NCBI GenBank assembly: GCA_003963305.1
Contig: RXJR01000001.1
Span: forward strand, 372,001-436,000
Origin: Candidatus Melainabacteria bacterium
GTDB taxonomy: Bacteria > Cyanobacteriota > Vampirovibrionia > Obscuribacterales > Obscuribacteraceae
Direction: 5' to 3'
Length of the DNA stretch: 64,000 nucleotides
Shown here one piece after another: positions 4,302 through 43,438 of the stretch. Below the pieces are notes generated by a model. That model was not told the DNA's origin. It was given only the letters and a program-made list of their open reading frames with translations, and ran no database searches. A program made the translations under genes and the position numbers. Each line of letters begins with the position of its first letter. Within the stretch, counting starts at the first letter, position 1.

Positions 4302-5360
4302 TCAATCGCCTGGGCGCTCGCAGTGTAGCCAGTATTTTCTATAGGTATCCCATTCCACATCGTCGGTGGTGTAGTCAGCGAACAAAGCAACGCCGCCAAT
4401 AACATCACCAACAGTTTCGGCTGAACTCAATCCTTGATTTAATCCACGCAAAGAATTAGCCAGACTTTCACAACGAGCGCGATGCGCCAGTGTCGCGTCT
4501 TCATAAGTGGGCAGCCCGAAGATCGCTTCGCAATGAGCCATTCCACTCTTGTTTGCGGCTGCTACAGCCTGACTGACATGAACGACCTGCTGCGACATCA
4601 ACCATGCGTAAGCACGCGGCAAATAAAGATAAGAGTCATAGCACATCACGCAGAGCTGATCGCACCTGGCTGCTACTTCACGGAAATACTGATCATTCCA
4701 GCCCCACAATGTGTTCGGATACCACATAGGAGTGTCAACACCAAGTAGTTGAGTAGGCTTCAGGACTGCTCGCGTTTCATCAAGAAGCGCAAGCAATCCG
4801 CGATCGCCGTTTGAACAAAACTCGTAGTCCCACTGAATGCCATCAAAACCACAATCGTTAACCAGCCAGAGCGCTTCTTGAATAAGTTTCTTTCGGACAT
4901 CGGGCTTGGATAAATCAAGCCCATCGCGCTGCGGAGCAGCACCAACATAAACCCAGGCAATCGCTTTTGTGCCCGGTACTCGCTCATGAACAGCGTTAGT
5001 AATCTTAATTGCCCCTGCCTGACGGCGCATTTTCAGACTGCCATCAGACTTCGTTGTCAGCACATGGAAGTATGCATACTTAATTTGATTGACGCGCAAC
5101 CGTTCGAGCATATCATCCCACTCTTTCTGCGACTGATGCTTGCCTGCGTACCAGTAGTAGCGCAGCCAGAGACCATTAGCAGCTTTGTTGGCACAAACGG
5201 AATGGAGCGGATTTTGCTGCTCGAAAAGATTTGCATCAATCATTCCCCAGACCACACAACCGACAAGGACCGCGATGCCGAGAAACAAAATTTTCCAAAC
5301 TGACAACGACGGATTATAGGCTTTCAATAAATTCGTCTCGAATACGCATGAGAATGACAC
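4302..5360 (-). CDS. GH18-like (chitinase-fold) membrane-anchored protein
   Basis: The product has up to 352 residues. A single hydrophobic segment near residues 22-42 (WKILFLGIAVLVGCVVWGM) suggests a membrane anchor with the domain outside. The motif FDGIQWDYE matches the GH18 beta4 signature DGxDxDxE with Gln in place of the middle Asp, and CVMCYDSYL matches the beta6 MxYD block, so a TIM barrel related to glycoside hydrolase family 18 is likely. The final Glu, the acid catalyst in GH18, is present. Substrate and activity are unknown. The GTG start at 5360 overlaps the end of the NADAR gene by 47 bases and lacks a strong ribosome site; a TTG about 11 codons further in is possible. The two genes are probably co-transcribed. 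Confidence 0.6.
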   Translation of the reverse strand: MSFSCVFETNLLKAYNPSLSVWKILFLGIAVLVGCVVWGMIDANLFEQQNPLHSVCANKAANGLWLRYYWYAGKHQSQKEWDDMLERLRVNQIKYAYFHVLTTKSDGSLKMRRQAGAIKITNAVHERVPGTKAIAWVYVGAAPQRDGLDLSKPDVRKKLIQEALWLVNDCGFDGIQWDYEFCSNGDRGLLALLDETRAVLKPTQLLGVDTPMWYPNTLWGWNDQYFREVAARCDQLCVMCYDSYLYLPRAYAWLMSQQVVHVSQAVAAANKSGMAHCEAIFGLPTYEDATLAHRARCESLANSLRGLNQGLSSAETVGDVIGGVALFADYTTDDVEWDTYRKYWLHCERPGD

Positions 5361-5778
5361 CTAACATATTCTTGCCGGTTCCATCGCCGCCGTCGCCCCA
5401 GAATTTGTCTCCCTTCGTGTGTTCCACAAGCGTCGCCGTCCCCGTAGATAGAAGGATCTTACGCAAACCTTCATGTTGAGTAAACTTGGCACGCACAGCC
5501 TCGACCATCAAATCGATTTTCACACTCTCCCAATCGGCGCGTAATGGTTTCTTTCGATCACGCCCCATCCGCGCCGCCACCATTGGTGACTTAGTTTCCC
5601 TGATGCGTTCCTGAATTTCCAGGTCAAGAAACTTCTGTGCTTGAAAGTAGTGTTCGACGGTCGGCCAAACACGCTCATCGATGGAAAGAGGCGAAGCATA
5701 GAAGTTCGAAAAACAACCATAGTCTTCACTTACACGATAAAACCGAATTACCTGTTCACTGTCGATCATGGTCATCAT
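5314..5778 (-). CDS. NADAR family protein (YbiA-like)
   Basis: The NADAR fold is plain: FYRVSEDYGCFSNFYASPL at the start, then WPTVEHYFQAQKF, a central MVAARMGRDRKKPLRADWE, and KFWGDGGDGTGKNMLGVILM at the end. Family members are N-glycosidases linked to ADP-ribose or to release of reactive riboflavin intermediates; which applies here cannot be told from sequence. The length (about 154 residues) fits stand-alone YbiA proteins. I start the gene at the ATG at 5778 because GGAGAG lies just upstream. The longer frame to 5853 adds 25 residues without family similarity or a ribosome site. The 3' end overlaps the GH18-like gene. Confidence 0.82.
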   Translation of the reverse strand: MMTMIDSEQVIRFYRVSEDYGCFSNFYASPLSIDERVWPTVEHYFQAQKFLDLEIQERIRETKSPMVAARMGRDRKKPLRADWESVKIDLMVEAVRAKFTQHEGLRKILLSTGTATLVEHTKGDKFWGDGGDGTGKNMLGVILMRIRDEFIESL

Positions 5779-5853
5779 TCTCTCCATAAAGCGTTCATGG
5801 CAGTATTTAATGGTCGTATTCGAACTGATCAACCATTCTACGTCAACTCTCAT

Positions 5854-6134
5854 TCATGCGCTTGCCTGGACCGGGAAACGTGAGATCTAGCCAAAAAACA
5901 CACCGAATACAGGCAATGTTGAATTACAAATGAATGCCATTCCCGCAAAATAAATGCGAAGTTTCCGATCTACCGGCACCGCGCTTAAAAGACAACAGCA
6001 CTAAATACAGTGCCATGCGCCCTACAATAAAAAGCAAATTGCCTCAACAACCTTGTAACACAAACTGTAACTTCTAACGTTCCACCGCAAAAGCTTGTGT
6101 ATAATCAAACCGTGAACTCGAATCTAGTTAGAGC
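5854..6134. other. Intergenic region upstream of the Cys-rich mini-ORF
   Basis: This gap between the divergent NADAR gene and the SDR leader holds no supported gene. A TATAAT at 6100-6105 is the only clear promoter-like element; no matching -35 hexamer lies 16-18 bases upstream. Confidence 0.5.
6100..6105 (+). promoter_or_regulatory. Candidate -10 box for the mini-ORF/SDR transcript
   Basis: The hexamer is a perfect TATAAT, 29 bases before the ATG of the mini-ORF. The -35 position has no good match, so this is only a candidate. Confidence 0.35.
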
Positions 6135-6233
6135 ATGCGTAATCAAACCAACTCAGCGATGACCACCCCAGCGAGCCCGGCAGCGGCTCCAGAGTTCCAC
6201 GTCTGCATGTGCTGCTGCATGAACTGTCCCTAG
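6135..6233 (+). CDS. Cys/Met-rich 32-residue mini-ORF (leader peptide candidate)
   Basis: The frame runs from ATG to TAG and encodes 32 residues ending in EFHVCMCCCMNCP, five Cys in eight positions. It is too short for routine gene calling. The stop codon lies in the loop of a perfect hairpin at 6225-6240 (TGTCCC-TAGC-GGGACA), and two more inverted repeats follow before the SDR gene 173 bases downstream. A Cys-codon cluster next to stem-loops is the pattern expected of a leader peptide sensing charged tRNA-Cys, but a metal-binding microprotein is also possible. The ribosome site is weak (GTTAGAG). Whether it is translated is unknown. Confidence 0.4.
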   Translation: MRNQTNSAMTTPASPAAAPEFHVCMCCCMNCP

Positions 6234-6315
6234 CGGGACATTAAGACACGATCCTCAGGATCTAAAACACCTTTATTGTATTGCACAGGAACATCAGGCA
6301 TTTGATGCCCTGTTC
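6225..6315 (+). promoter_or_regulatory. Three consecutive stem-loops in the SDR 5' leader
   Basis: The inverted repeats are TGTCCC/GGGACA at 6225-6240, GATCC/GGATC with a TCA loop at 6250-6262, and a two-part hairpin at 6289-6315 (GAACA/TGTTC outside, GGCAT/ATGCC inside). None is followed by a U-run, so they look like a structured leader rather than terminators. Confidence 0.5.
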
Positions 6316-6405
6316 AGACATTGAAAAAAACAAGTGATAGCTAACCGTTCAACACTACATACGGTGGCGCATGACGGCGCGCCGTTGATTCAGGAGTAAA
6401 CTCAA

Positions 6406-7299
6406 ATGGCAAAAGTATTTTTGACAAACGCAACAGGTTACATCGGCAAAGCAGTCGCCTTAGCGGCACTGAACAAAGGGCACTCAGTATCAGCACTGGC
6501 TCGCTCACCAGAAGCCACACAAAAGCTGGAGAAGATCGGCGTAAAACCTGTATCGGGCGACTTAAAAAAACCAGAACAATACACTGACACCCTCAATCAA
6601 TATGACGTGGTAATACACACAGCCGCGACCAATGACGAAGATTTTGGCAAGTATGACACTCTGACAGTGAACAGCATTATCGAAACGCTGAAAGGAACAA
6701 ACAAAACCTTCATCTATACAAGCGGCACCTGGGTGCTCGGAAACACAGGCGACATCATTGCCGACGAACAGACACCTTATGAACCTCTGCCATTTGTTGC
6801 CTGGCGTGCGGAGAACGAACAACAAGTCGTAAAAGCGGCTCAGAACGGAATCAAGGCAATCGTGCTGCGCCCTGTAATTGTCTACGGTGGAGAGGAAGGA
6901 ATTATTGCCAATCTGATTCAGCAAGCTGAAAAGACCAAGACGGTGCCTTACATCACGACAGGACAGAACTACTGGTCACTCGTGCACGTCGAAGACCTTG
7001 CCGACTTGTATTTGCTAGCCATTGAAAAGGCCGAGGCAGGATCTCTGTACAATGCAAGCAGCGATTACTTACCGGCGAAACAAATCGCCGAATTAGTGGC
7101 TGGCGCCGCTCAGGCTCAGGCAAAATCTATTCCGTTAGAAGAAGCAAGAAAGACGCTTTCAATCTTTGCTGACGCCTTCGCACTCGATCAAAAAATCGGC
7201 GCAGTGAAAGCAAAGCAAGAGCTCGGGTGGCAGCCTAAAGCTCCGAAATTAGCCAACGCCATCGAAAAAACAAAACAATTGGCAGCCGGTCGCGCGTAA
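6406..7299 (+). CDS. NAD(P)-dependent epimerase/dehydratase-like SDR
   Basis: This 297-residue protein has a Rossmann fold of the extended/atypical SDR or NmrA-like type. The nucleotide loop at residues 5-14 is FLTNATGYIG, a variant of TGATGxIG with Asn replacing the first Gly. ARSPE after beta2 would favour NADP. The block IYTSGTWVLG carries the Ser region, but the usual YxxxK is absent, with AWRAENEQQ at that position, as in many atypical SDRs. Substrate is unknown. The ATG follows a clear CAGGAG site. A long leader with hairpins and a Cys-rich mini-ORF precedes it and an intrinsic terminator follows, so it appears to be its own transcription unit. Confidence 0.85.
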   Translation: MAKVFLTNATGYIGKAVALAALNKGHSVSALARSPEATQKLEKIGVKPVSGDLKKPEQYTDTLNQYDVVIHTAATNDEDFGKYDTLTVNSIIETLKGTNKTFIYTSGTWVLGNTGDIIADEQTPYEPLPFVAWRAENEQQVVKAAQNGIKAIVLRPVIVYGGEEGIIANLIQQAEKTKTVPYITTGQNYWSLVHVEDLADLYLLAIEKAEAGSLYNASSDYLPAKQIAELVAGAAQAQAKSIPLEEARKTLSIFADAFALDQKIGAVKAKQELGWQPKAPKLANAIEKTKQLAAGRA

Positions 7300-7319: not shown

Positions 7320-7354
7320 AAAAAGCTCTCGGCACTGGGGTCCGAGAGCTTTTT
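7320..7354 (+). terminator. Intrinsic terminator after the SDR gene
   Basis: A perfect 12-bp stem (AAAAGCTCTCGG paired with CCGAGAGCTTTT) has a 9-nt loop and ends in a U-run, 21 bases after the stop codon. Confidence 0.92.
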
Positions 7355-16093: not shown

Positions 16094-17782
16094 ATGCTCG
16101 AAAGTTTAGATATACGCGAATTCGCGCTCATAGAGAACGTCAGGGTGGAATGGACTCCTGGCTTGAACATTCTCACCGGTGAAACCGGCGCGGGAAAATC
16201 GATCATCATCGATGCACTGAATGCGGTGCTAGGGGGAAAAGCGGGAGCGAGCTTTATTCGCACCGGCGCAGAGAAAGCCTCGATTGAGGCATCTTTCAAA
16301 ACTAATCCGCTCATTGCAGCCTGGCTGAAAAAGCAAGAGTTAATCGACGAAGAGCTGTCTACACTTGTCGTCAGCCGCGAAATTACAAAGTCCGGCTCCC
16401 GCATACGCATCAACGGAACACTCGTCAACAGCGCGATAGTGCAAGAATTATCACAGTTACTTTTGACAATTCATGCGCAGCACGAAGCACGCACATTAAT
16501 GTCTCCACAGTCACAGCTGGAGATGCTCGACAGCCTGGGCGATCAACCGCACCGAAAATTGTTGGAAAAAGTGCGCACCCTCTGGTCGAGACGCAAAGAG
16601 CTGGTTGCGCAAATAAAAGAACTTGACACGACTGAAGATGAACGATTGCGCCGATTGGATTTCATCCGCTTTCAACTGACTGAGTTGAACGAAGCACAGT
16701 TAACTGATGCCGACGAAGATGAGGAGCTGAGCAAGCAAAAGAAAGTGCTGGCCAACGTAGCACAGCTCTCCAGCGCCGCCGCTCTCGCTTACGAAGTTTT
16801 GATGGGTGGCGAAAGTTCCGACAGCTCAACAATTGATATGTTGCAAACCTCTCTGGCTGAAGTTGAACGAGGCGCCCGTCTGGATCAGGAGCTGAATGAA
16901 CCGGCCGATCTGCTCAAGCAAAGCCTGGCAAACATTGAAGAAGCGGCTCGCCACCTGCGCCGCTACGGTGCGGGGCTCGACACCGACCCCGAAGCACTTT
17001 CCAATGTAGAAGCCAGGCTGGCTGTGCTCGCTTCAATAAAGAGAAAGTATGGTCCTGAACTGACAGACGCAATCGCCAATCAAGCCAGATTAGCGGAAGA
17101 AGTAGACAAACTGGAAAACGCTCAGACCGCTACGGAAGGCTTGCAGGAAGAGCTGGCAGCTCTGGATGCAGCCTTAAACGAGAGCGCCTCAGAACTCTCC
17201 AACAAACGTCAGAAGCTGGGCAAAAAACTGAGCGAACAGGTGCTTTCCGAACTGATTGACCTGGGCATGGAACGATGCAAATTTGAAATCAAGTTCGACG
17301 CGACACCCGAAGTAACCTCGACAGGCGCAGATCGCGCCGAATTTCTGATTGCCCCCAACCCCGGTCAGCCCCTTCTGCCATTAGCAAAAATCGCCTCGGG
17401 TGGAGAACTGTCACGGGTTATGCTGGCGGTCAAATCTATTTTTGCCAGTGCTGACGGCGTTTCAACCGTTATCTTCGATGAAATCGACACCGGGCTGAGC
17501 GGACGAGTGCTGCAAGCGATGCGGGATAAGCTAGCCAGGCTGGCAAAATCTCACCAGATTCTGTGCATCACCCATCAACCGATCATCGCCTCAGTGGCCG
17601 ACAACCATATAGAAGTCCAGAAGGAACATTCTAAAGATCTGACGAAGGTTTACGCGCGGCAACTCGACGCGGACCAGAGATTGCGATCGCTCGCATCCAT
17701 GGCCAGTGGGCAAGAAGACGCAGAAGTGGCTTTAAATTTCGCGCGCTCTCTAATGGAACAAGCCAACCACCTGCGCGCCTGA
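16094..17782 (+). CDS. recN: DNA repair protein RecN
   Basis: The protein has 562 residues, the usual length. It is an SMC-like ATPase that acts early at double-strand breaks. The start LESLDIREFALIENVRVEW and the Walker A GETGAGKS (about residues 29-36) form the N-terminal half of the ABC head. Coiled coil fills the middle (about 150-360). The C-terminal half has the signature KIASGGELSRVMLA and Walker B STVIFDEIDTGLSG, then CITHQP. All motifs are intact. A short perfect palindrome (ACTTCGTAACGAAGT at 17812-17826) follows the stop. tRNA-Gln and rplY are downstream on the same strand. Confidence 0.96.
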   Translation: MLESLDIREFALIENVRVEWTPGLNILTGETGAGKSIIIDALNAVLGGKAGASFIRTGAEKASIEASFKTNPLIAAWLKKQELIDEELSTLVVSREITKSGSRIRINGTLVNSAIVQELSQLLLTIHAQHEARTLMSPQSQLEMLDSLGDQPHRKLLEKVRTLWSRRKELVAQIKELDTTEDERLRRLDFIRFQLTELNEAQLTDADEDEELSKQKKVLANVAQLSSAAALAYEVLMGGESSDSSTIDMLQTSLAEVERGARLDQELNEPADLLKQSLANIEEAARHLRRYGAGLDTDPEALSNVEARLAVLASIKRKYGPELTDAIANQARLAEEVDKLENAQTATEGLQEELAALDAALNESASELSNKRQKLGKKLSEQVLSELIDLGMERCKFEIKFDATPEVTSTGADRAEFLIAPNPGQPLLPLAKIASGGELSRVMLAVKSIFASADGVSTVIFDEIDTGLSGRVLQAMRDKLARLAKSHQILCITHQPIIASVADNHIEVQKEHSKDLTKVYARQLDADQRLRSLASMASGQEDAEVALNFARSLMEQANHLRA

Positions 17783-23029: not shown

Positions 23030-23746
23030 ATGGATCTAAGAATCGCTCATCTTTACGCTCATTTTCTGAATATCTACGGTGATCGTGGAAATATCATCAC
23101 GATGGTCCAGAGGGCGAGATGGCGTGGCATTAACGCCACAGTTCAGCCAATCGGGCTGGGTGAAAAAATCGACCCTGATTATTTCGATTTCTATTTCATC
23201 GGCGGCGGACAAGACAAACAACAACAGACCATAGCCGAAGACCTTGTACAGCGCTCTGCCGAACTTCACAAAGCTGTAGAGTCCGGCGCAGTGATTCTAT
23301 CTATATGCGGGGGTTACCAACTTCTGGGCCATTATTATCAGCCCCACGAAGGTCCGCAACTGAAAGGCATCTCGCTGCTGGATGCTCACACCGTTGCTGG
23401 CAATCGACGCATGATAGGCAATGTTGTCGTCAAGCGCGAAGATGGCTCAACTCTAGTCGGTTTCGAAAATCATAGCGGCAAAACTTTTTTGGGATCGGAC
23501 TTGAAACCGTTAGGCAAAGCCACGACAGGCAATGGCAACAATGGCGATGATCTGTACGAAGGTGCCGCCCACGGCACTGTATATGGTACCTACTTGCATG
23601 GTTCAATTTTGCCGAAAAATCCACATTTTGCTGACGAGCTTTTGACTAAAGCTCTTGCAAGAAGACATGGTGCCGTGGCACTCAGCCCGCTCAATGACGC
23701 TACTGAAGATGCTGCTCACAAACGTGCACTGACCCTGCCGGCTTAA
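23030..23746 (+). CDS. gatD: Lipid II isoglutaminyl synthase glutaminase subunit GatD-like
   Basis: The protein has 238 residues and is a class I glutamine amidotransferase of the CobB/CobQ-like type. The nucleophile Cys93 is in ILSICGGYQLLGHYY and the catalytic His190 in YGTYLHGSILPKNP. FENHSGKT near 146-152 is typical of GatD. GatD supplies ammonia from glutamine to MurT, which amidates D-glutamate in lipid II. In known loci murT sits next to gatD; here the upstream 600 bases are empty and the downstream gene is an unrelated oxidoreductase on the other strand, so MurT must lie elsewhere or be absent. AGGAAGG precedes the ATG. Confidence 0.85.
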   Translation: MDLRIAHLYAHFLNIYGDRGNIITMVQRARWRGINATVQPIGLGEKIDPDYFDFYFIGGGQDKQQQTIAEDLVQRSAELHKAVESGAVILSICGGYQLLGHYYQPHEGPQLKGISLLDAHTVAGNRRMIGNVVVKREDGSTLVGFENHSGKTFLGSDLKPLGKATTGNGNNGDDLYEGAAHGTVYGTYLHGSILPKNPHFADELLTKALARRHGAVALSPLNDATEDAAHKRALTLPA

Positions 23747-31813: not shown

Positions 31814-33211
31814 ATGCCGCCTGACCCGAGCGACTGTCGCATAATTTCCGCTCGCTGGGTCCTGCCTGTGTCGGGACCGCCTCTCAAAGACGCGGCAGTC
31901 GTCATTGAAGGAGACACTATTGTTGACGTGCTGTTCAAAGAAGAACTGAGCTACAAATATCCGCCCCAGTTCCTCGAACAACTCCCTGAAGAGCCGCATG
32001 ATTACGGCGATGCCATCATATTGCCGGGATTTATCAATCTGCATACGCATCTCGATTATTCCGCGCTGCGCTGCTCAGATGTCGAATCGGGCATGTTCGA
32101 CTGGATTTGCGGGCTGGTCGAAAGATCTTCCAGGTGGAGCCCGGAGCAATGGCGCAGTTCAGCCGCTTACGGCGCCAGGGAAGCAGCCCTTTCCGGAACT
32201 ACTTGCATAGTCGACAGTTCATTCAGCGGTCTGTCTGTTCATGCCCTGGCTGACACCGGGTTGCGGGCAGTGGTCGGGCTCGAGCTGTTCGGACTGCGCG
32301 ATGATGAAGCGAACGCCGTCTGGGGGCACTGGCTGAACCGATACGACACACTCAAAAACACCACAGAATCGCGCTCTCGCGTTGCCACAGCGACAGGAAA
32401 AATCAAACTGACAGTCGCCCCACACGCACCATATACGGTGTGCCCGACCTTATGGCTGAAAGCAGCGACCTGGGCGCAAGAAAAGGGTCTGCCGCTTCTG
32501 GCGCACCTTTCGGAGTCGCGCCATGAATGTGAATGGATTAAGTCCGAGAACAGGCGGGTCGACGAATATCTGACATTTGTCAAAAGGCTATTCAATCCCG
32601 CTCTGCCCTTAAACGACAAAGGCATCCTGGAGGAGTTGAGTCAGATACGCTGGAAGGGTCGAGGTCTCTCGCCAACAAAACATTTGAAAAATTATGGATT
32701 GCTGGACAACAACCTCATTGCCGCCCATGCCGTTCACTTAGACGAAGACGATGTCAAATTACTGACTCAGTGCCAGGTGAAAGTGGCGCATTGCCCGCGC
32801 AGCAACGCTAAATTGCGAAACGGGCGCGCCGCCATCGAAAAACTGCAGGCAGCTGAGATCGAATTTGCCCTTGGCACTGACGGACTGGCGTCGAACGACG
32901 ATTTGAACATGCTCAACGAAGCTCGCTTTGCAGTTGATCTTCACCGGGCCGCTAATCCCGAATTGCAGTGGACCTCCGAAAGAATTATTGGAAGCATGAC
33001 TCGTGATGCAGCCCGAATACTCAACCTCAATCATGAAATCGGCACCATAGAGCCTGACAAGCTGGCCGACATAGCTGTTTTCAAACTTGAGCACAGGACG
33101 CATGGAACAGAGAATCCTTACGACCTGCTTGTGCACGGTAAGTCCCGGCTGCAAGATCTGTTCGTGGACGGACGAGCTGTGGTGGTCGGAGGCGAACTGG
33201 TCGAAGAATAG
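31814..33211 (+). CDS. Amidohydrolase of the chlorohydrolase/deaminase group
   Basis: The product has 465 residues from the ATG at 31814, which has TTTAGAGGAA upstream; the 13 residues before it are not family-like. Metal ligands are visible: HTHLDY at the first barrel strand, APHAPYTVCP, LLAHLSES with a later His, and GTDGLASNDD near the end. The layout matches the TrzN/SAH-MTA deaminase group, which hydrolyse or deaminate N-heterocycles using one Zn or Fe. GFINLHTHLDYSALR is close to hydrolases of unknown substrate in cyanobacterial-type genomes. A degenerate GGDEF gene follows on the same strand. Confidence 0.88.
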   Translation: MPPDPSDCRIISARWVLPVSGPPLKDAAVVIEGDTIVDVLFKEELSYKYPPQFLEQLPEEPHDYGDAIILPGFINLHTHLDYSALRCSDVESGMFDWICGLVERSSRWSPEQWRSSAAYGAREAALSGTTCIVDSSFSGLSVHALADTGLRAVVGLELFGLRDDEANAVWGHWLNRYDTLKNTTESRSRVATATGKIKLTVAPHAPYTVCPTLWLKAATWAQEKGLPLLAHLSESRHECEWIKSENRRVDEYLTFVKRLFNPALPLNDKGILEELSQIRWKGRGLSPTKHLKNYGLLDNNLIAAHAVHLDEDDVKLLTQCQVKVAHCPRSNAKLRNGRAAIEKLQAAEIEFALGTDGLASNDDLNMLNEARFAVDLHRAANPELQWTSERIIGSMTRDAARILNLNHEIGTIEPDKLADIAVFKLEHRTHGTENPYDLLVHGKSRLQDLFVDGRAVVVGGELVEE

Positions 33212-41794: not shown

Positions 41795-43438
41795 TCAAGG
41801 CATCTTTTCTTCTAAATATGCACCAAGAAAATCGAGAAGTTCGGTCAAGTCGAGTTCTGACTCCTCGGCGTCATGCTCCGGATCGCCCGCCCTGGACGCC
41901 ACCGTGTGGGTTCCGGCGGCAGACTCCACAATTAATTTCCAGCTCACCAGATTGCCGGCTCGCTCCACAAATCCGTTACGAACTGAAAGGATGCCGCTCA
42001 GTTCGACCAGCTCGCGCAGCTTTTCCGCCTCGTCTCGGGGCATCTTATCGACATCCAATTCGCAGCCCTTGAACTGGGGCACGATGCCGCGCGTGATTTT
42101 CATAAAATAATTCAGCCTGAGAACATCTCCAACATGCTCATTCTCAAAAGACTGGGGATCGATCAGGTACAGTCGCACCATATTCAGTGCCTCACTGGCG
42201 GAGCGATAGCGCACTTCTTCCCGGCTGTATTTGCTGCTGAAACGAACTTCCTTGCAGGCGAGAAATCCTTTTGCTGCCAGCCCGAAATAAACTAAGCCGA
42301 CCGGCTTGTCATCTGTTCCACCATCTGGTCCGGCGATACCTGTGACGCTGACTCCGATGTCAGCCTGGGAGAACTTCATCACCCCGAGAGCCATGGCTTT
42401 GGCGCACTGAGGGCTGACTGCGCCGTACTCTTTCAATATCGATTCTGAGACGCCGAGAATTTTATGTTTGGCTTGATTTGAGTATGTGACGACGTTTAAG
42501 GTGGTGTACAGAGAGCTGCCTGGCACATCTGTCAGTCTCTTGCTTACATAGCCGCCAGTGCACGATTCGGCAGTCGACAGAGTCATCTCACGCTGCGTCA
42601 GGTACTTGCCGACGACTGATTCCAGAGTTTCTTTGTCTGTGCCATAACAAAGATTGCCACTGTTCTTCGTGATTTCCTCAATAACCGGAGCGGCAATTTT
42701 TTTGGCATCGTCTATGGTGGCAGCTTTGGCTGCAACCCGCAACCGACATTCTCCAAGACCAGCATAGGGTGCCACTGATGGATTGGCGTTACTAAGAAGA
42801 TGTGCATATTTTTCAGCCAGGGCTGATTCGCCGATACCGTAATGCTTCAACTCGCACGACCAGAGTGTGCCCTCAACAAAATTCGCCTGCAGATATGGGC
42901 GCGCCGTCTCAGCCCACATAGCCTTCATCTCGGAAGGCACACCCGGGAAAGTAAGAATTGTGCGTGGTCTGGAGGGATCGACTATTTCTGCTTTGCGCAA
43001 GTCAGACTCAGAGACCTTCCAGACAATTCCCGGTGCGGTTCCTCTCGGGTTGGGCAGCCAGTTCGCGCCCACAGGCAGAAGAGCCTGTTTGTTGTTTGAC
43101 TCAGGCATGGCAAAATTGCGCGCCGCAAAGAGCTTTTGAATATGTGCCAGCACCGCTTCGTCGAGCACCATCTCAGCGCCGAAAAAATCGGCTATTGATT
43201 CAGTGGTCAGATCATCAGGTGTTGGACCGAGTCCGCCAGTTGTAATGACTATATCGGCGCGGTTCAGCGCAGCGCGCAGAATTGAATGGATACGCTCCTT
43301 GTTGTCGCCAACAGTGGTGCGGAAAAAGCAGTTGATGCCAAGCTGAGCAAGCTCGATCGCGAGAAACTGGGCGTTCGTATCGAGTACGTCTCCAAGCAGG
43401 AGTTCCGTACCGATTGACAATGTTTCTGCTGTAGCCAT
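41795..43438 (-). CDS. cinA: CinA-like NMN deamidase with C-terminal emfourin-like extension
   Basis: The product has 547 residues, about 120 more than usual CinA. The N-terminal COG1058 domain (LSIGTELLLGDVLDTNAQFL, ITTGGLGPTPDDLT) and the C-terminal amide hydrolase domain (STAESCTGGYVSKRLTDVPG, VSVTGIAGPDGGTDDKPVG) are intact. CinA cleaves nicotinamide mononucleotide and ADP-ribose type compounds. Residues about 445-547 (MKITRGIVPQFKGCELDVDK, then KLRELVELSG and SWKLIVESAAGTHTV) follow the strand-helix-strand layout of emfourin-type protease-inhibitor domains. AGGA precedes the ATG. Confidence 0.9.
   Translation of the reverse strand: MATAETLSIGTELLLGDVLDTNAQFLAIELAQLGINCFFRTTVGDNKERIHSILRAALNRADIVITTGGLGPTPDDLTTESIADFFGAEMVLDEAVLAHIQKLFAARNFAMPESNNKQALLPVGANWLPNPRGTAPGIVWKVSESDLRKAEIVDPSRPRTILTFPGVPSEMKAMWAETARPYLQANFVEGTLWSCELKHYGIGESALAEKYAHLLSNANPSVAPYAGLGECRLRVAAKAATIDDAKKIAAPVIEEITKNSGNLCYGTDKETLESVVGKYLTQREMTLSTAESCTGGYVSKRLTDVPGSSLYTTLNVVTYSNQAKHKILGVSESILKEYGAVSPQCAKAMALGVMKFSQADIGVSVTGIAGPDGGTDDKPVGLVYFGLAAKGFLACKEVRFSSKYSREEVRYRSASEALNMVRLYLIDPQSFENEHVGDVLRLNYFMKITRGIVPQFKGCELDVDKMPRDEAEKLRELVELSGILSVRNGFVERAGNLVSWKLIVESAAGTHTVASRAGDPEHDAEESELDLTELLDFLGAYLEEKMP

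Follow-up and report, generated by a model that had tools for sequence, protein, structure and literature searches.

Does a 32-codon, cysteine-rich mini-ORF, ending within an RNA hairpin upstream of an SDR gene, act as a leader for that gene, and what would such a leader sense? The ORF lies in the window (the whole 64-kb stretch of DNA analyzed), which is part of a 7.5-Mb genome (G000) of a Melainabacteria-type relative of cyanobacteria. It encodes the peptide MRNQTNSAMTTPASPAAAPEFHVCMCCCMNCP, and both the C-terminal end VCMCCCMNCP and the TAG in the loop of a TGTCCC/GGGACA stem are present as originally predicted (Table 1). Comparison with related genomes argues strongly that the ORF and the hairpin together are a functional leader. 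The main reading, to which we assign a probability of about one half, is that the leader is translated and acts in cis, with the progress of the ribosome over the Cys codons being read out by hairpins.

Table 1. Features of the leader and its target gene, in window coordinates.
Feature	Position	Strand	Basis or remark
Extended -10 promoter element TGTGTATAAT	6096..6105	+	predicted
Leader ORF, 32 codons, stop TAG	6135..6233	+	sequence; counterpart ORFs in 11 other genomes
Cys cluster CMCCCMNCP, last conserved codons Cys-Pro	6204..6230	+	Cys counts, 12 genomes
Hairpin 1, TGTCCC-TAGC-GGGACA, perfect 6-bp stem	6225..6240	+	5' arm formed by the Cys-Pro codons
Hairpin 2, GATCC-TCA-GGATC	6250..6262	+	equivalent position, changed sequence in relatives
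Stem-loop 3, GAACATCAGGC...GCCCTGTTC	6289..6315	+	sequence
Imperfect palindrome CACTACATACGGTG between leader and SDR, repeated family	6353..6366	.	conserved in relatives
SDR Shine-Dalgarno AGGAG	6392..6396	+	sequence; AAGGAGT in congeners
Target gene, extended-SDR/epimerase-fold protein, 297 aa	6406..7299	+	Pfam Epimerase 1.5e-25

Transcription is predicted to start near 6112, 5' of the leader ORF, because a good extended -10 element lies just upstream. The element reads TGTGTATAAT or TGTGTATACT in three congeners, TGTATACT in five genomes of genus g37, TGTGTATAAT in G052 and TGTATAAT in G009. The predicted 5' UTR of the leader ORF is approximately 23 nt, and the leader is not leaderless. The mini-ORF has a weak ribosome-binding site, which counts against the main reading; its start region, AGAGCATGCGTAA, is unchanged throughout the window genus. 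The peptide has no match in Pfam, DUF2946 included, and inspection of the leader peptides (32–47 aa) revealed no hydrophobic signal sequence. In all three congeners the same frame stays open for approximately 23–37 codons past the TAG (window 6234-6311; L040; L041), beginning RDIK. A product of TAG readthrough in the window genus is possible but unsupported. In the other genera the leader ORF ends 4–9 codons past the Cys-Pro codons.

Could such an arrangement have arisen from a chance ORF beside a chance hairpin? Cys-ended small ORFs do arise by chance, and within the 64-kb window 2 of 790 small ORFs are Cys-ended, which makes this ending rare, not unique. Folding of 6108-6410 is likewise unremarkable by itself when compared with shuffled sequences (z = -1.4). 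It is conservation, rather than the folding or the ORF taken alone, that lifts the leader above chance. In the window genus, the SDR orthologues of two congeners, 78% and 70% identical to the window SDR, are preceded by the same arrangement; their leader peptides are MRKQTISTLIPRTGAPGASEFSMFICCCHIDCP and MRNRTVSTVNNQSGKEVALKSLLSMCYCAPMCCRTYCP, with TGTCCCTAGCGGGACATTAA identical in each. Beyond the genus, nine further genomes, spread over five other genera of the same family, carry a Cys-rich mini-ORF. In congeners and other genera alike, the Cys-Pro codons form the 5' arm of a hairpin, and the leader always lies 169–450 nt 5' of the orthologous SDR. In total the leader occurs in 12 genomes of six genera (g1, g8, g11, g12, g14 and g37). 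This conservation, together with a reversed-pattern control that returned nothing, refutes the chance explanation, whose remaining probability is negligible.

The control belongs to a search of 382 genomes of the class for the pattern TGYTGC-N(3-12)-TGTCCC-N(3-6)-GGGACA, with the reversed pattern as control. Eight genomes matched, all of them upstream of the SDR and two of them (G055 and G058) in another genus, as compared to zero for the reversed pattern. The more distant SDR loci of G009, G012 and G015 show the same element, and an SDR search over 50 family genomes added G052, G057, G059 and G060 as carriers. Extending the pattern search to the phylum (386 genomes) yielded further matches only in two genomes of another family. 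A search of 40 relatives with the 32-aa peptide returned weak matches only (best non-self E 0.015), and the true homologue in G001, at E 0.14, was identified from its position ahead of the SDR alone. A leader covariance model (R1), run against the 50 family genomes, gave credible matches at the SDR locus only, the other matches examined having either no Cys frame or no matching hairpin; under strict filters this model missed G009 and G059. The leader thus occurs once per genome, with no credible copy elsewhere.

In a maximum-likelihood tree, the leader-bearing SDRs group with those of G013 and G049 and are separated from the remaining paralogues, whose side of the split has a support of 99/98. 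G013 and G049 have no leader; it is present in 12 of the 14 genomes, and in six of the seven genera, of this SDR clade, and is kept even between SDRs of only ~34–39% identity. Because the tree places leaderless and leader-bearing SDRs together, the leader was probably ancestral to the orthologue group and lost in two genomes.

What selection holds in the leader was assessed from the last 32 codons up to Cys-Pro in the 12 genomes (384 codons). In-frame stops were absent from these codons, whereas the two alternative frames contain 14 and 15. Cys accounts for 54 of the 144 final codons (12 per genome), as compared to 6 and 20 in the other frames and to a background of ~1.3% in the long ORFs of the window. 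All indels up to the Cys-Pro codons are multiples of three. A 1-nt indel is confined to the C-run after the last conserved TGT and gives a different tail (PPLGT as against PHWGQ) with no apparent harm. Cys-Pro occurs at the equivalent place in 12 of 12 leaders and Met-Cys-Pro in eight, from four genera. The peptide body is free to drift: codon positions 1, 2 and 3 differ 90, 76 and 95 times in g37 and 35, 31 and 35 times in g1 (the window genus), with no excess of third-position change. The exact positions of the Cys codons also shift while their content stays, as would be expected if the codons, and not a fixed arrest sequence, were what matters. The conservation of Met-Cys-Pro in four genera exceeds the need of pure codon sensing. 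These comparisons demonstrate, at the level of sequence, that selection keeps an open frame up to Cys-Pro, a dense set of Cys codons, hairpin 1 and mostly hairpin 2, ahead of the SDR. A gene too short for routine callers is shown in this way to be under clear selection. Conservation of the frame and the Cys codons in relatives, on which the original prediction had been made to depend beforehand, was found, hairpin included, in the genus and in five others.

The same data bear on the suggestion that the product is a stand-alone Cys-rich microprotein, or an RNA gene beside the SDR, with the peptide binding metals or thiols in trans and the SDR transcribed from its own promoter. A conserved frame with a Cys/Met-rich end would be expected of such a protein, as would the variable spacer to the SDR, across which no structural coupling was detected. 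However, the peptide body evolves without third-position excess and there is no fixed CxxC spacing. The linkage to one SDR is obligatory over six genera, and no sigma-70-like promoter was found between the leader and the SDR. The case for a metal- or thiol-reactive microprotein, proposed earlier as the alternative, is made weaker by an unconserved peptide body and a drifting Cys spacing; this microprotein is retained as an improbable rival.

At the position of hairpin 1, each of the 12 leader genomes forms a stem of at least five pairs, its arms being TGTCC(C)/(G)GGAC. The exact 16-mer is a single-copy sequence in each of the three congeners and is absent from the 47 other family genomes. In the window genus the 3' arm of hairpin 1 lies past the stop, and within g37 it falls in two different frames; coding therefore cannot explain why it is retained. 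The placement of the stop codon within the hairpin loop (TAG at 6231-6233, in the TAGC loop), a central feature of the original prediction, is limited to the window genus; in other genera the stop falls a few codons past Cys-Pro, after the hairpin. Hairpin 2 sits 9–11 nt 3' of hairpin 1 in most members, and its pairing is kept while its arms change (GATCC/GGATC, GGTC/GACC, TGGTC/GACCA, CTGGTC/GACCAG and GGTTG/CAACC). Individually it is weak (shuffle p mostly 0.02–0.2); its position and the co-change of its arms recur. In the case of G015 the stem is placed differently, and G052 has no hairpin 2. Both additional stem-loops of the original prediction are real in the window, but alignment of the congeners shows stem-loop 3 in neither of the other two. 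Rfam covariance models gave two chance-level matches only, far below the gathering score.

Hairpin 1 could also be read at the level of DNA, with TGTCCCnnnnGGGACA as an inverted-repeat transcription factor site and the ORF as incidental. The repeat is perfect, and its sequence is conserved as well as its pairing. However, TGTCCC-N(3-6)-GGGACA is not enriched in the ten leader genomes searched (0–3 sites each, approximately the control level, and in the window genome at this locus only), which argues against a transcription factor regulon. Moreover, the predicted transcript would begin more than 100 nt before the site, and the open Cys-rich frame goes unexplained by an operator. This reading was rejected on the lack of enrichment and is very unlikely.

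Many Cys codons, a drifting peptide and a fixed hairpin immediately after them form the pattern predicted by a codon-sensing leader. On the main reading, a ribosome would translate the 32-codon ORF of a transcript begun near the predicted start, and when it occupies the Cys codons, hairpin 1 would lie 3–9 nt ahead. With ample Cys-tRNA, the ribosome would run through, melt hairpin 1 and terminate within it or immediately beyond, so that hairpin 2 stays free. In a shortage of Cys-tRNA, it would stall on the Cys codons and hairpin 1 would persist. The difference between the stalled and the run-through state would then alter SDR expression. The sensed signal would most likely be cysteine supply; free cysteine would fall under stress from electrophiles or thiol depletion, and such a leader could read the drop. 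That the leader senses cysteine is a proposal of moderate strength, and two observations count against it, namely that the target is an SDR rather than a Cys gene and that there is a single copy per genome. The original idea of an amino-acid-sensing leader therefore stands well as to the leader and plausibly as to cysteine, but its target has an SDR fold and is not a cysteine gene.

Clusters of Cys and Met are natural ligands of Cu(I) or electrophiles. The leader might be a nascent-peptide sensor, in which C-x-M-C-P occupies the exit tunnel, Pro sits close to or at the point of termination, the hairpin lies ahead, and a stall triggered by a metal (e.g., copper), an electrophile or the redox state controls the SDR in a manner resembling CutF or CruR. 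The fixed place of Cys-Pro in every leader and the recurrence of Met-Cys-Pro are in its favor. There are precedents in CutF (PMC9973294) and CruR (PMC9426467), which pair a Cys motif with a C-terminal Pro motif, in the case of CutF also with an mRNA hairpin. However, the Cys spacing drifts, the tail past Cys-Pro is read in different frames, and the hairpin alone might account for the constancy of TGTCCC. There is also no Rho for a CruR-type output, and the SDR has no known metal role. We consider this reading possible but doubtful.

How the leader would act on the SDR was approached through the usual mechanisms. A search for Rho (TIGR00767) found it in none of the 50 family genomes but in the expected control genomes, and Rho is known to be missing in cyanobacteria (PMC13289151). 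Rho-dependent termination is ruled out by this absence, and the output of the leader must be a non-Rho transcript ending, mRNA stability or translation. No intrinsic terminator (stem plus U-run) was found between the leader and the SDR in the window genome or two congeners, and the candidates in other leader genomes are scattered and non-homologous. With neither Rho nor a conserved intrinsic terminator, classical attenuation is not supported. The alternative RNA structures of the original prediction were not borne out, as no terminator/antiterminator pair was found. In simple folding that leaves out long-range and kinetic effects, modeled access to the SDR ribosome-binding site was unchanged with a ribosome at the stop or at the Cys codons.

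Classical attenuators of the trp/his type place hairpins after a codon-rich leader peptide, as is seen here; this locus differs from them in having no U-run terminator, no conserved antiterminator and a target outside an amino acid pathway. Closer in kind are the Cys-codon leaders of actinobacteria; a 2005 description has them as short ORFs whose Cys-codon runs lie near the stop and which have no obvious terminators (PMC1262725). According to the account in PMC9031893, mycobacterial polycysteine uORF attenuators respond to cysteine (Canestrari et al. 2020). The present leader shares with the actinobacterial ones a short translated ORF, a Cys run near the stop, a place ahead of the controlled gene and the lack of an obvious terminator hairpin. 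The parallel, which had been drawn in the original prediction, holds for the kind of leader but not for the host, which is not an actinobacterium; in addition, the target has an SDR fold instead of being a cys or cbs gene, the last Cys codon is part of a conserved hairpin, Rho is missing and the leader is not leaderless. Cys-codon leaders are already known, and what is new is the other phylum and the unexpected SDR target. CutF-type sensors (PMC9973294) have a Cys motif, a C-terminal Pro and an mRNA stem-loop in common with the leader. CutF, however, carries a signal peptide and is exported, and the stem-loop just before the next gene masks the ribosome-binding site of that gene. The present leader peptide lacks a signal peptide, its hairpin and the SDR are 169–450 nt apart, and masking was not found. 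The CruR/DUF2946 copper uORFs (PMC9426467) likewise yield a product with Cys and a C-terminal Pro motif that controls downstream genes, but for the present leader there is no match to DUF2946 and neither a fixed CXXC nor a fixed RAPP, and Rho, on which CruR depends, is missing.

The target itself is atypical. None of the NCBIfam equivalogs matched the SDR above its cut-off. Where an SDR would usually carry its catalytic YxxxK pair, the window protein has W-R-x-x-N and its orthologues have W-R-x-x-N/V/L, or P-L-A-x in G012 and G015. Because the catalytic Tyr-x-x-x-Lys is missing, the SDR is perhaps not an ordinary oxidoreductase and is possibly a non-enzymatic NAD(P)-binding protein. A more speculative proposal, which we hold only tentatively, is a new type of leader in a Rho-less lineage, in which either a Cys/Met-Cys-Pro nascent end or stalling at Cys codons, set against the embedded hairpin, would control a catalytically degenerate SDR through non-canonical transcript ending or mRNA stability and so link it to thiol/redox status. 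If so, the SDR may be an NAD(P)-binding sensor. If the main reading is true, control by leader peptides would extend to non-photosynthetic cyanobacteria, which lack Rho and in which termination is poorly understood, and the leader would give the first clue to the signal answered by this atypical SDR. In one cyanobacterium, most transcript ends fit no known mechanism (PMC13289151).

Several other features surround the leader. A canonical-looking intrinsic terminator (AAAAAGCTCTCGG...CCGAGAGCTTTTT) at 7320-7354, 3' of the SDR, indicates that intrinsic terminators do exist in the window genome. The g37 spacers between leader and SDR (L129 1830-1925, L134 and L133) contain one to three copies of CCGTCCCTGAACAAGACGA, with inverted arms CGTC...GACG. 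Divergent from the leader, at 5314-5853 on the minus strand, is a NADAR-domain protein that matches the riboflavin-intermediate N-glycosidase equivalog TIGR02464 above cut-off and, more weakly, an anti-phage NADAR family. The palindrome between leader and SDR reads CACCACATATAGTG in congeners and is similar in other genera. The related palindrome GCACYnnATnnRGTGC occurs in five copies with at most one mismatch in the 64 kb (5998-6013, 16214-16229, 23574-23589, 32426-32441 and 42175-42190), as compared to 0.54 expected and to 0 of 100 shuffles reaching five. Copies of the palindrome, with the one in the spacer, flank the leader, and the motif loosely resembles NrdR boxes or a repeated palindromic element.
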